NCBI RefSeq assembly: GCF_900604335.1
Contig: NZ_UWOD01000001.1
Location: 558,001-622,000, forward strand
DNA length: 64,000 nt
Direction: 5' to 3'
From: Intestinibacillus sp. Marseille-P6563
GTDB lineage: Bacteria > Bacillota > Clostridia > Oscillospirales > Butyricicoccaceae
Below are positions 572-22,614 of this stretch, piece by piece. Each line of letters starts with the position of its first letter. Position 1 is the first letter of the stretch. A program made the position numbers and the translations under genes. The notes beneath the pieces were generated by a model that saw nothing but the letters and a program-made list of their open reading frames with translations, was not told the origin of the DNA and searched no databases.

Positions 572-763
572 TGCGGGTGATGATTTGCACATCACATGGT
601 TGATACTGCCCGTGGATTTGCTAGACCCCATCAGGGTACGGGAGCGTACTTTCATCGAACCTTCCGTTTAAGCGTCTACTTTTGCAACCACGCCATTTGT
701 GTGTGTTCAGGCCATTCGGTTGCTTTACATCGCCACACACTAACGCTCTATTCCGCCACCGCA
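572..763 (-). ncRNA. Long tRNA-like RNA module, copy A
   Basis: On the minus strand this 192-nt segment starts tgcggtggcggaa, which resembles the acceptor/D-arm start of bacterial tRNA-Leu. It ends with a T-arm-like hairpin (tgatg-tgcaaat-catca) and a strand (ccgca) that pairs with the 5' end. About 130 nt of extra sequence lies between, including the block agtagacgctt. A second segment (2320-2490) has the same 5' start, internal block and 3' end. It begins 3 nt after the CCA of tRNA-Gly. The T loop is not the canonical TTCRANY, so it is probably not an ordinary tRNA. The function is unknown; the call rests on seen pairing and the two-copy comparison. Confidence 0.45.
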
Positions 764-766
764 TAT

Positions 767-840
767 TGGAGCACGAAACGGGAGTCGAACCCGCGTTCCC
801 GGCTTGGAAGGCCGGTGTACTACCGCTGTACGATTCGTGC
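767..840 (-). tRNA. tRNA-Gly (anticodon TCC)
   Basis: A full cloverleaf of 74 nt including encoded CCA. The acceptor stem is gcacgaa/ttcgtgc with discriminator T, the anticodon stem ccggc/gccgg has loop cttccaa, and the T arm holds gttcgac. It is one of two Gly-TCC tRNAs in the prophage cluster and is followed 3 nt later by long module A. Confidence 0.92.
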
Positions 841-1197
841 ATGTGCCGGTCTTTCCCGGCTGTCATCCGTTTTTCGGGAACGGCATTCCATATTCATTCA
901 CAAAAACTGTATGCAGCAAAAATCAAACGGTGTTCAAATAACCCTGATCTCTAATCCTGTTCACGGATTACCTCCTTACAAAACTTTAGAATGAATCTTC
1001 TGGCGAAATGCGAATTTGTCGTATCTGGCAAATACGCGCTGGCCCGCCGCAGCCGACTTACATCTTCATATCTTTTGCGTCACAAACAAACTGACTACAT
1101 CGTTTCATTTTTCTCACCTTTCTTTCCCGGACTTTTATCCGTAAAACCTATCGCCGCGTCCTCATGCAGACTAAGCGATCATATTTATTCACGTATT
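841..1197. other. ORF-free spacer in prophage tRNA region
   Basis: About 360 nt between tRNA-Gly and the small phage gene at 1198. No conserved protein, tRNA fold or strong terminator was recognised. It presumably contains the 3' untranslated region of the minus-strand phage genes, which are transcribed towards the tRNAs. Confidence 0.35.
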
Positions 1198-1440
1198 TCA
1201 CGCAGGCTCGTATGTCTTTTGAAATATATCCGGTTTGCATGGATAAAATTCTCGATTTACACCCTTAATGATATAGTCTCCCACACTTGCATGAAGGTTC
1301 CCTTCTAGTGTATGAATCACTAAACCTACTTTCGGTATGATTTCAAACGATTCCGGGTCAATAAATTCGCATATTTCTGCATGGTTTGACCCATTCCATT
1401 GAACTGCATCAATTACAACAGGTTTCTTGCGATATTTCAT
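1198..1440 (-). CDS. Small conserved phage protein (PGDYIIKGV-type)
   Basis: An 80-residue protein beginning MKYRKKPVVIDAVQWNG and containing GDYIIKGVNREFYPCKPDIF near its C-terminus. This start and this motif are typical of a small protein family very common in phages and prophages of Firmicutes; its biochemical function is not established. I chose the ATG at 1440, preceded by a ggag ribosome-binding site, over an in-frame ATG four codons upstream. It lies in the same orientation as the tRNA array, consistent with one late or middle phage transcription unit. Confidence 0.8.
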   Translation of the reverse strand: MKYRKKPVVIDAVQWNGSNHAEICEFIDPESFEIIPKVGLVIHTLEGNLHASVGDYIIKGVNREFYPCKPDIFQKTYEPA

Positions 1441-1516
1441 ATCAATCTCCATTTCATTTTACAATCAATACTGGATTGTAAATCATTTGATCGAACATTG
1501 TGCTACGCTGACATGA

Positions 1517-1876
1517 TTACTTTTGCAAATCGTATAAGCTACCTACTATTTCAATGTTTTCCCATGCGTAAAACCTGCCATCGTACCTACTTAAATGAAT
1601 TGATTTGTTCAATCTTTGTTTCATCCATTCATCAGCCTTTTTAGTAAGAGAAATTTCTCCTGGAAGCAATTGGATAATGTTGTAGCAGTCTGTTTCTTCT
1701 GGTGAAATACATTCTGTGCTATGTTGCTGTTTATAAACAATAACATAGCCAATTGGTCTTTTTAACAATATTGCTTGTCCATCCCAAATTTCTTTTCCAA
1801 CTACACCTTCGGCAATGATATCGCCTTCTCGTAACGTTATACCATGAATATCTTTTCTTGGTATCGCTTCTCTCAT
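1517..1876 (-). CDS. Small phage-type protein, possibly YopX-like
   Basis: A 119-residue soluble protein. The N-terminal DIHGITLREGDIIAEG and the C-terminal WENIEIVGSLYD resemble the ends of YopX-family phage proteins, which carry a GDI-type start and end near EVIGNIYE; this is a weak resemblance only. The strong Shine-Dalgarno gaggtgagg lies just before the ATG. The gene is upstream of the 1198-1440 gene in the same orientation, with a 76-bp gap. No catalytic motif is visible and the function is unknown. Confidence 0.6.
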   Translation of the reverse strand: MREAIPRKDIHGITLREGDIIAEGVVGKEIWDGQAILLKRPIGYVIVYKQQHSTECISPEETDCYNIIQLLPGEISLTKKADEWMKQRLNKSIHLSRYDGRFYAWENIEIVGSLYDLQK

Positions 1877-2237
1877 TTCCTCACCTCTTACATTTTTAAT
1901 ACAATAAAAAGGATGATATTACAATCTACAACCTGTTCACATTTTTGCTACTTAACGCCTAGACGCACATTATTTTTGTCAGCTTATATGCTATTAGCTG
2001 AACTTTCCCGTGTTGGTCTGCGTTGCCACACACAAACTCTGCTTCCACACCTCACATACTTTGCAATCAGGAATCACCCTTTTCATCACGGTACTTTTCA
2101 ACCTCGCGCATGTGCATATGTCGCAACCGTTATCCCATTCGGTTGAGGTTAACCCATATAATTTTCAACGTGCCGCTTTCGCACAGCGCACACGCAAGAC
2201 CCGTTCGCGGTGTTTTTCGCCTGTGGTATCATACATC
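1877..2237. other. ORF-free spacer between phage gene and tRNA-Thr
   Basis: About 360 nt with no credible reading frame. It includes the ribosome-binding region of the 1517-1876 gene and short inverted repeats. Apparent frames across it encode low-complexity or tRNA-derived sequence and were discarded. Confidence 0.35.
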
Positions 2238-2313
2238 TGGAGCCAATGGTGGGACTCGAACCCACGACCTGATGATTACAAATCACCTGCTCTGCCATCT
2301 GAGCTACACGGGC
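2238..2313 (-). tRNA. tRNA-Thr (anticodon TGT)
   Basis: 76 nt with encoded CCA. The anticodon stem ggtga/tcatc closes the loop tttgtaa, giving anticodon TGT. The D arm (gctc/gagc) and T arm with gttcgag are canonical. The acceptor stem gcccgtg/cattggc has one mismatch, as is common for phage tRNAs. It is followed 6 nt upstream in window coordinates by long module B. Confidence 0.88.
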
Positions 2314-2319
2314 ATATTA

Positions 2320-2490
2320 TGCGGCCAAGGATTTGCACCCTGGATGGATGTTTTTACTTATCCAAGCCGTCTTGTGTCCTTAAAAGGTTACACATCCTCC
2401 GGTCAAGCGTCTACTATTACCGTTCAGGCTGTCGCCCGTCTGGTTTTACCGTCCCACGCGGTACGTAGGCCGTCTATTTCCGCCACCGCA
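2320..2490 (-). ncRNA. Long tRNA-like RNA module, copy B
   Basis: A 171-nt minus-strand segment sharing its architecture with copy A: start tgcggtggcggaa, internal agtagacgctt, a T-arm-like hairpin caggg-tgcaaat-ccttg and terminal ccgca pairing with the start. The sequence between the shared blocks differs in length and content, so the two are diverged homologues and not a recent duplication. It lies directly before tRNA-Thr in transcript order, so both modules touch tRNA genes. The RNA class is unknown; options include a tRNA with a large insertion or a tRNA-mimic RNA. Confidence 0.45.
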
Positions 2491-3459
2491 CAAATTCTGT
2501 GTGTATTCCGTCTTTCAGCCGTTCCAATGGGACGATAGCGCACACAATCGCATCCGGCATCTGATGATTTTTTATCACCTCTATACAGAGCCGCTATCGT
2601 CTAACTCAACCGCATAGCGACATATTTAGTGGCGGATAAGTTTAACCTCAGAACGCTTCTCTCACCAGCATTCCTATCTACTCTACATCGAGTAGACCCC
2701 AACTTCCAAAGGGTGCACATTATATACTCTACCACCGACAGGTCAGCACTTACCCATCTATCACTATATCGTGTGACTACTACGCCAAACAATCAGCAGC
2801 TTTTTTATATCTCATGTTGGCGATCAACCCAAGCGAGAATGGAGCCACGCATACCTGACCGTTTGGTTATAAGCGTTAGACAAGCTGTGTACACTATTTG
2901 GATATGTTTCCATGCCTTTAACACTTGTCCCACGGAATTTTACCGTGCCATCATACACTCATTTTTGGCTGAGCAACCTTAAATGGCATGACCATTATAT
3001 GAATCGAACCTCGCTTTTGGATAGGTCACTTCTGCCAGCCTGCTAACCATCTTCTACTCCTGTCGGCATCGAACTTCTCTTACTCGGTGCCAGATCAGGG
3101 GAGCAGGTTCACCAAAGGCAGTCTTTTCATCTTCTTTCGCTGCAAATACACAGACTCCATCGTTACAGTTATCCTCAGTATATCTGCATACCGTATATAA
3201 ACGGCATACAAGGGCTGTGCTGTGTTAAGGACGTTCCTTTCTGTTTATAGCCTTGGCCTTCGGCATCAGAACATTTACAGCTTCATCTACATTTACACGG
3301 GCTTGGAACCGTTATCCCAATATAGAGGGTGTTGCGAAAACATACATCGTCATATACCAGGATAGCTGTATTAAATTAGGTATTTACTGATGCTCCCATC
3401 GCTTGGAAGCTTCCCTCCATCCGCGTTCCTTGGCGTATTCTATACCCTCAATACCTAAA
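2491..3459. other. 969-nt ORF-free stretch inside the tRNA array
   Basis: No convincing protein gene. Scattered tRNA-like T-arm fragments (for example gaatcgaacct near 3001 and catcgaactt near 3067) occur without a complete cloverleaf. Long non-coding stretches between phage tRNAs are where large structured RNAs such as GOLLD and ROOL are known to lie, so such an RNA is possible. I cannot fold or match it by eye. Confidence 0.35.
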
Positions 3460-21135: not shown

Positions 21136-22614
21136 GTGAACGCAGTAATCTACGCTCGTTATTCCAGCGAAGGACAGCGGGAGGAAAGCATTGACGGTCA
21201 GATCCGAGAATGCATGGAGTATTGCAAGCAAAACGGTATGATCGTAGTGAAGGAATACATCGACCGTGCCCTTTCTGCCAAAACTGACAACCGCCCCGAT
21301 TTCCAGCGAATGATTAAAGACAGCGCCAAAGGATTGTTTGATGTGGTTGTGGTCTGGAAGCTGGACCGTTTTGCCCGCAACCGCTATGACAGTGCCCATT
21401 ATAAAGCTGCCCTGAAAAAGAACGGTGTACGGGTGGTTTCTGCCACAGAGAATATTGCTGACGGGCCGGAGGGCATCATTCTGGAATCTATGCTGGAAGG
21501 TATGGCGGAGTACTATTCCGCAGAACTTTCCGTGAAGGTTATCCGTGGCCACACAGAAAATGCACTCAAATGTAAGTACAACGGCGGCACCCCCACATTC
21601 GGCTTTGCCATTGATGCCAACAAGCAATACCAACCAGACCCAGTCAATGCTCCGATTGTCCTAGATATTTTCAAGATGTATGATACCGGCTCCACCATGA
21701 AGCAGATTATGGATCACCTAAATGCTCTGGGGGTCACAACTGTCCGAGGCAAACCGGCAGACTTAAACTTCATCTCTGGAATTCTGCATAACCGGAAGTA
21801 CATTGGCGAATATAAATATCGCGACATCGTGGTACCGGATGGCATTCCAGCTCTTGTACCGACAGATTTATTTGAACGAGTGCAGGAACAGATGAAGAAA
21901 AACAAAAAGGCCCCAGCCAGACACAAGGCTGAGGATGACTATCTGCTGACCACAAAATTGTTTTGTGGTTCCTGCAAGGCGATGATGGTGGGCGAATCCG
22001 GTACGAGTTCCAGCAAGGGTCAGGTATATCATTATTATCGCTGTGTAAACAGCAAGCGGAAAAAGACCTGTAAAGCCAAACATCGCAGTGTTCGAAAAGA
22101 CCCTCTGGAGCGTGCTGTTGTTGCATCCGTTATGCGGAACATCATGGACGATGCTTTTGTGGAGTATTTTACCGACCAGGCAATGGCGTTACAGGGGCAG
22201 GAAAGCAACGAACTACCCGCCCTGCGGCGGCAACTGGCAGATACCGAGAAGGCTATCGACAATATGCTCAACGCAATCCAGGCAGGTATTTTCAATACCT
22301 CTACCAAGCGCCGTTTGGACGAGCTGGAAGCCACCAAAGAAAAGCTGGAGCTGAGCATCATCAAGGAAGAGATGAAAAAGCCTCAGTTCACCAGAGAGCA
22401 GATTCAGTTCTATATTCTCCAGTTCCGCAAAGTGGACACCAATACCTTGGAAGGGCGCAGACGGCTGATTGATGGCTTTGTTAATAGTGTGGTCGTATAC
22501 GATGACTACATCCTCGTGACCTTCAACTACAAGGAAGGTGCGGAACGGATCACCTTTGAGCAGATCGAGAGTTCGGATTTATCATCCCTCGGGGGACCAT
22601 GCGGAGTATCATGA
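21136..22614 (+). CDS. Large serine recombinase (integrase)
   Basis: 492 residues. The resolvase catalytic domain begins MNAVIYARYSSEGQ with catalytic serine about residue 10 and the DRFARNR arginines near 77. It is followed by the recombinase domain (GGTPTFGFAID to IGEYKYRDIV), a zinc ribbon (CGSCKAMM, later CVNSKRKKTC) and a coiled coil. Enzymes of this kind insert and excise mobile elements without strong homology. The GTG start follows aaggaggtgacgat. It lies at the right end of the mobilizable element, and its stop codon is inside the terminator hairpin. Confidence 0.94.
   Translation: MNAVIYARYSSEGQREESIDGQIRECMEYCKQNGMIVVKEYIDRALSAKTDNRPDFQRMIKDSAKGLFDVVVVWKLDRFARNRYDSAHYKAALKKNGVRVVSATENIADGPEGIILESMLEGMAEYYSAELSVKVIRGHTENALKCKYNGGTPTFGFAIDANKQYQPDPVNAPIVLDIFKMYDTGSTMKQIMDHLNALGVTTVRGKPADLNFISGILHNRKYIGEYKYRDIVVPDGIPALVPTDLFERVQEQMKKNKKAPARHKAEDDYLLTTKLFCGSCKAMMVGESGTSSSKGQVYHYYRCVNSKRKKTCKAKHRSVRKDPLERAVVASVMRNIMDDAFVEYFTDQAMALQGQESNELPALRRQLADTEKAIDNMLNAIQAGIFNTSTKRRLDELEATKEKLELSIIKEEMKKPQFTREQIQFYILQFRKVDTNTLEGRRRLIDGFVNSVVVYDDYILVTFNYKEGAERITFEQIESSDLSSLGGPCGVS

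Follow-up and report, generated by a model that had tools for sequence, protein, structure and literature searches.

A family of tRNA-like RNA modules with hypervariable inserts in phages of Bacillota

The window analysed here is a 64,000-nucleotide (nt) stretch of Intestinibacillus sp. Marseille-P6563 (contig NZ_UWOD01000001.1, positions 558,001 to 622,000). Two homologous tRNA-like RNA modules are encoded in it, both on the minus strand, and they belong to a family of phage RNAs that is missing from Rfam. The existence of this family can be regarded as secure. The 397 distinct members gathered here, for each of which at least six of the seven acceptor pairs were required, come from contigs of IMG/VR, from named phages, and from bacterial genomes, of which almost all are Bacillota. 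The proposal of a new class of phage RNA, made in the original prediction, is supported by these hundreds of homologues, by strong covariation, and by the lack of a match in Rfam. As to function, the best reading is that of a trans-acting tRNA mimic carrying a phage-specific insert, to which we give about an even chance.

The two modules of the window

Two homologous segments had been predicted at 572-763 and 2320-2490. Both are real, with true ends that lie slightly further out (765-569 and 2492-2317). The pattern GGTGGCGGAA-N(52-82)-TAGACGCTT occurs twice in the window and in none of 100 dinucleotide shuffles. An independent covariance model, R1, was built from 60 homologues with a short D loop, with the window left out, and its matches in the 64 kb are exactly modules 1 and 2 (35.9 and 30.0 bits, E 1.6e-7 and 6.5e-6). 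The shared block AGTAGACGCTT, the T-arm loop UGCAAAU, and the pairing of the acceptor strands are seen in both modules, as had been described. Single-sequence folding (z = -0.3 for module 1 and z = -2.5 for module 2) is not decisive; the case for the modules is made by covariation. The parts of the two RNAs, with the basis of each assignment, are as follows.

765 to 569, minus strand, 197 nt: tRNA-like RNA module 1, long-D subclass (pattern, R1 model match, coordinates)
759 to 765, minus strand: module 1 acceptor 5' strand UAUGCGG, pairing with CCGCAUA at 576-570; the acceptor covaries in the family
747 to 756, minus strand: module 1 D-arm 5' half GCG-GAAUAGA (coordinates)
680 to 746, minus strand: module 1 D-loop insertion, consisting of H1, GUAAAG, H2 (GCAACC..GGUUGC), and AAAA (subclass alignment; the helices covary in the subclass)
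672 to 679, minus strand: module 1 D-arm 3' half GUAGA-CGC (coordinates)
598 to 671, minus strand: module 1 hypervariable payload with closing helix GGUU-cGAU / AUC-aACC (family payload test, coordinates)
577 to 595, minus strand: module 1 T arm GUGAUG-UGCAAAU-CAUCAC (folding, coordinates)
2492 to 2317, minus strand, 176 nt: tRNA-like RNA module 2, long-D subclass (pattern, R1 model match, coordinates)
2486 to 2492, minus strand: module 2 acceptor 5' strand UGUGCGG, pairing with CCGCAUA at 2324-2318
2415 to 2472, minus strand: module 2 D-loop insertion, consisting of H1 (CGgCCUACG/CGUGGGaCG), GGUAAA, H2 (ACC..GGU), and AAUA (subclass alignment and covariation)
2346 to 2406, minus strand: module 2 payload with closing helix GGAUGU/ACAUCC (family payload test, coordinates)
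2325 to 2343, minus strand: module 2 T arm CCAGGG-UGCAAAU-CCUUGG (coordinates)

The tRNA-like scaffold and its spread

The scaffold, as seen in the 397 members and in an alignment of 60 sequences, starts with a 7-base-pair (bp) acceptor, U8, G9, and a 3-bp D stem (GCG/CGC) with the loop GAAUAGGUAGA. The variable payload follows, and the 3' part consists of A47-U48, a 6-bp T stem with the loop UGCAAAU, and the 7-bp acceptor 3' strand. Nucleotides of the tRNA core (A14/A15, mostly G18 with G19, and U48) are retained. Those of the tRNA elbow (U8, A14, A15-U48, G19-C56, and U54-A58) are also present, as read from the sequence and partly ascertained by the search anchors. U8 is found in all 397 members, which the search pattern partly imposes, and U48 in 394 of them; the A15-U48 combination occurs in 60 of the 60 aligned sequences.

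In the 60-sequence alignment, from which sequences with fewer than six of the seven acceptor pairs had been excluded, 98.3% of the 960 cells are paired and 13 of the 16 pairs have changes on both sides. The covariation score of these 60 sequences is 0.679, compared to 0.186 +- 0.012 after shuffling, and sliding the pairing partners lowers the paired fraction to 33-48%. In a set to which this filter was not applied, pairing amounts to 85-90% at the six inner acceptor pairs and to 76% at the outermost one, and all four Watson-Crick types occur at most positions. Compensatory changes are also found in the D stem (GTG/CAC, ACG/CGT, and ATG/CAT) in a set that was not chosen on the D stem. When sequences were selected on the 5' half only, the UGCAAAU T loop was recovered in 89 of 117; among 121 sequences selected on the 3' half only, most have the D arm. 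At the level of sequence, the tRNA-like core is shown to be kept by selection. The tRNA mimic that had been suggested finds support in this strongly covarying, tRNA-like fold, and the fold is common to the family rather than peculiar to the two copies of the window.

The scaffold resembles tRNA-Leu (RF00005, class II) in its 7-bp acceptor, U8, GCG/CGC D stem, A14/A15, G18/G19, U48, and U54/C56/A58. This likeness is real, since R1 picks up the tRNA-Leu genes of the host's own genome as weak matches (about 22-31 bits). The scaffold departs from tRNA-Leu in that G replaces U at position 55, the T stem has 6 bp, and no anticodon arm with a 7-nt loop is found in the family alignment, where the hypervariable region of about 30-190 nt takes its place. 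The acceptor and the T stem together give a 13-bp stack, a length otherwise typical of tRNA-Sec and not of elongator tRNAs. By a crude check, CCA is encoded in 4 of the 397 members, compared to 221 of the 447 tRNAs found in these loci, and the discriminator A73 is present in 53% of the members. Because the anticodon arm is missing, CCA is hardly encoded, and A73 is found in only about half, the module is not a working tRNA. The idea of a tRNA with large insertions is half right: it holds for the two-hairpin insert in the D loop of the two window copies and fails as regards a working tRNA.

Two alternatives take the likeness to tRNA-Leu more literally. The modules could be functionless tRNA-Leu genes that are decaying or carry an intron, as the Leu-like sequence and the position in a tRNA array might suggest. 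This is contradicted by the compensatory changes across all helices, and the near-constant UGCAAAU T loop, which is not that of a tRNA, the 6-bp T stem, and the independently covarying D-loop domains are likewise incompatible with decay, which we consider extremely improbable. The second alternative is an aminoacylated, non-decoding analogue of leucyl-tRNA that serves in non-ribosomal aminoacyl transfer or as a drain on leucine. The leucyl-tRNA synthetase of many bacteria does not read the anticodon, which would suit such an analogue, as would the tRNA-Leu-like D arm and the matches of R1 to host tRNA-Leu. However, the frequencies of A73 and of encoded CCA speak against charging, although CCA can be added after transcription, and only a slight chance is left to this explanation. 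A trans-acting mimic that borrows the shape of tRNA is the reading that we prefer.

Both modules of the window belong to the long-D subclass (about 60 distinct sequences), in which the D loop has the layout GAAUAGA-H1-GUAAA-H2-AAUA-GUAGACGC. In this subclass 144 of 152 H1 cells and 154 of 190 H2 cells are paired, compared to 106 and 97 after the strands were re-dealt. Module 2 agrees well with the layout; module 1 retains GUAAA and H2, its H1 is mismatched, and AAAA replaces AAUA. In a rarer variant (loci L380, L364, L400, L371, L378, and L394), the T loop is interrupted (UGAC...CAAAU), once by a short GAC/GUC hairpin. Since insertions are found in the D loop and in the T loop, the scaffold accepts extra domains at each. 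Two further sequences, in loci L017 (6039, minus strand) and L027 (6327, minus strand), are tRNA-Leu-like with a D-loop insertion of ~65-80 nt and a normal UUCGAAU T loop, and are possibly intermediate between tRNA-Leu and the module family.

The family is widespread in phages. Of the 28 viral contigs that contain the exact pattern of the window copies, some 18 to 20 are genuine on inspection of the T arm. About eight of these first matches (L004, L005, L007, L019, L020, L022, L023, and L024) have no T arm, are chance-like, and were not used. Patterns for other parts of the module each matched at least 120 viral contigs. The scan of bacterial genomes gave 19 matches, in Bacillus, Paenibacillus, Lactobacillales, Clostridia, Erysipelotrichaceae, and one metagenome-assembled genome binned as Muribaculaceae (Bacteroidota; L246). 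The latter is the sole match outside Bacillota in that scan and may be mis-binned. Among 398 sampled genomes of the host's phylum, 5 have a strong match under strict filters, which is a lower bound. Named phages with the module include phi3T, KLEB27-1, SBSphiJ, and other B. subtilis myophages; Pd_22F; the Listeria phages PSA, B025, B054, and P70; the Lactobacillus phages phiJL-1, Sha1, and LP65; and Enterococcus Schiekviruses and phiFL phages. In phage records the matches either have no annotation or are overlaid by hypothetical open reading frames (phi3T, KLEB27-1, and B054). As in the window, two modules lie near each other in locus L026.

Payload, gene context, and possible function

The hypervariable payload lies between the D and T arms and ranges from 31 nt in Sha1 and 37 nt in PSA to more than 170 nt in LP65. 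Its sequence is not random, as it is often closed by a helix between the nucleotides that precede C/U-AU and a segment further upstream, which usually follows AAG. This closing helix is found in 109 of 204 dissimilar payloads, compared to 23.5 +- 4.3 after shuffling, and the most enriched payload words center around UAAG. Payload subfamilies are common to modules with different acceptor stems in different phages, and one payload type occurs with either a short or a long D loop (L118 and L003). On the other hand, PSA and B054, both phages of Listeria, have quite different payloads on a near-identical scaffold. As payloads are shared and swapped among scaffolds, the payload behaves as an exchangeable module.

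Several more specific ideas on the payload and the module ends have been rejected. A mini anticodon hairpin (4-bp CUUA/UAAG with loops of 3-10 nt) is exact in only 52 of 214 cases and marks a subfamily instead of a general trait. Of the bait for host nucleases that had been suggested, one form, bait for MazF/EndoA, finds no support, as the word UACAU shows no enrichment. An overlap of the 3' end with an upstream reading frame ending in ...AVAE* (L184, L031, and L183) was seen in 8 of 152 cases, and other frames are open equally often.

A constant scaffold with modular, phage-specific, and hypervariable payloads is also what would be expected of a trans-acting antisense or regulatory small RNA, in which the payload is the guide and the scaffold serves only for processing and stability. 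However, the payloads are structured, related sequence is retained inside subfamilies across phages, and no excess complementarity of the payload to neighbouring phage DNA, the only DNA compared, was found. The tRNA core also appears to be conserved more exactly than stability alone requires. We therefore consider an antisense role unlikely and continue to favour a mimic of tRNA that acts in trans.

The gene context differs among phages. In PSA, phiFL3A, and Sha1 the RNA is located downstream of a late transcription activator of the ArpU/RinA type, and in Sha1 it immediately precedes the HNH and terminase genes. It is upstream of HNH-terminase in Pd_22F, after the HU gene yonN in phi3T, and within tRNA arrays in large myophages. 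In Enterococcus phage vB_Edu_21C1 (L402) a separate tmRNA (2155-2502) adjoins the module with its 3' end, in a tRNA array. In a survey of 45 loci, late regulators and sigma-like factors are the commonest upstream neighbours, HNH/terminase genes are among the commonest downstream, and no constant gene partner was found. In locus L184 a sub-threshold match to the skipping-rope RNA (1864-1754, minus strand, 24.6 bits, threshold 36.7) has been observed near a phage HU gene, ~1.5 kb from the module.

In the window, the two modules lie in phage-like DNA with a primase, a helicase, a DNA methyltransferase, and a serine integrase (21136-22611). Genes for tRNA-Phe, -Gly, -Thr, -Gly, -Ser, and -Ile are found in the same stretch as the modules, and those for tRNA-Gln, -Met, and -Trp are located immediately to its left in the genome. 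Direct contact with real tRNA genes had been claimed; the modules do adjoin such genes, separated from them by gaps of 1 and 3 nt.

767 to 840, minus strand: tRNA-Gly(UCC) with encoded CCA; module 1 begins after a 1-nt gap from its 3' end
2238 to 2313, minus strand: tRNA-Thr(UGU) with encoded CCA; module 2 stops 3 nt before its 5' end

Two other observations were made in this array. The stretch 2950-2758 (minus strand) has a sub-threshold Rfam match to RAGATH-36 (29.6 bits, E 0.0028, threshold 70) with a strikingly conserved 5' end, and may represent a divergent relative within this array. RAGATH-36 was rejected as the identity of the modules because its match lies elsewhere in the window and is below the threshold. 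At ~3075-2985 (minus strand) a tRNA-like T arm, GAGGUUCGAUUC, may mark a degenerate tRNA, and ARAGORN makes no call there.

The late-operon position raises the alternative of a cis processing signal, in which the module would serve as tRNA-like punctuation. Cut by RNase P and RNase Z, it would keep transcripts apart or make them more stable, in temperate phages where the late operon begins. The location between the late activator and HNH/terminase or preceding genes (PSA, phiFL3A, and Sha1) or upstream of HNH-terminase (Pd_22F) is consistent with this, and so is the near abutment of the window modules on real tRNAs. However, tRNA arrays and other contexts are also occupied, the neighbours are not constant, and the payload helix, the D-loop domain, and the payload subfamilies are left unexplained. 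A role confined to processing in cis is thus quite improbable.

The trans-acting mimic is proposed to work as follows. Enzymes of tRNA processing would excise the RNA from phage transcripts, and the elbow and the acceptor/T stack would then engage a host protein that handles tRNA. Lacking an anticodon arm, the module cannot decode. The payload would supply a phage-specific contact, and the RNA would serve as a decoy or an inhibitor in taking over the host or in countering its defences. The late position is consistent with a product that acts in trans on the host, and so is the finding that no gene is a constant partner. The family, its fold and distribution, and the missing anticodon arm and CCA are shown, whereas the processing, the action in trans, and the target are inferred.

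Several points weigh against this proposal. A hypervariable payload would also fit weakly constrained filler, and placement near the start of the late operon would also fit the role in cis. A tRNA gene is present in 104 of 371 module-bearing loci, counted in the fetched DNA, and the module is therefore not simply a component of tRNA arrays. In addition, members were found through sequence anchors, so that the constancy of the scaffold is partly ascertained, and two checks, the set not chosen on the D stem and the selection on one half at a time, correct for this only in part.

A bolder version of the mimic, which we put forward tentatively as having a chance of about one in three, is that the family represents a major class of phage effector RNAs that has escaped recognition. 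Here, a tRNA-elbow scaffold would display exchangeable, fast-evolving payloads and optional D- and T-loop domains, and many phages of Bacillota would use these to disarm host defences or to reprogramme an enzyme of the host that binds tRNA. Very many phages of Bacillota, among them textbook ones (phi3T, PSA, phiJL-1, and LP65), carry this structured RNA, which has apparently been overlooked. Its fixed tRNA-like frame, built around an insert that changes rapidly, points towards mimicry in a molecular arms race. The model phages make it possible to ask which host factor binds the imitated tRNA and what the insert does. Phage annotation would also be corrected, since tRNA finders miss the module and hypothetical reading frames are placed over it.

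Comparison with known RNAs

In an Rfam 15 scan of the window, only tRNAs are found above the threshold, and cmscan up to E=10 reports nothing at the modules; the match to a known RNA family that could have undone the original prediction was thus sought and not found. ARAGORN calls neither module as a tRNA. No description of the family was found in the open-access literature when it was searched, with the scaffold sequence included, a coverage that leaves out most subscription papers and bioRxiv.

GOLLD and ROOL are unexplained structured phage RNAs that are often located near tRNA genes. Compared to these, the modules are far smaller, have a tRNA-like fold, and match no Rfam family. Like the modules, tmRNA has tRNA-like ends that flank an inserted domain, but the modules measure about 90-220 nt and have a Leu-like D arm, and neither ARAGORN nor Rfam calls them as tmRNA. 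YrlA (RF02553) is a tRNA-mimicking RNA of bacteria and phages in which an extra domain replaces the anticodon arm. An identity with YrlA was rejected, as the RF02553 model reaches at best 12.1 bits in eight records (threshold 69), and a gene for the Ro60/Rsr partner (TROVE, PF05731) was found neither in the host genome nor in any of 39 phage records. The family appears to be new, yet its mimicry design, in which tRNA-like ends carry an inserted domain, has a precedent in both tmRNA and YrlA.
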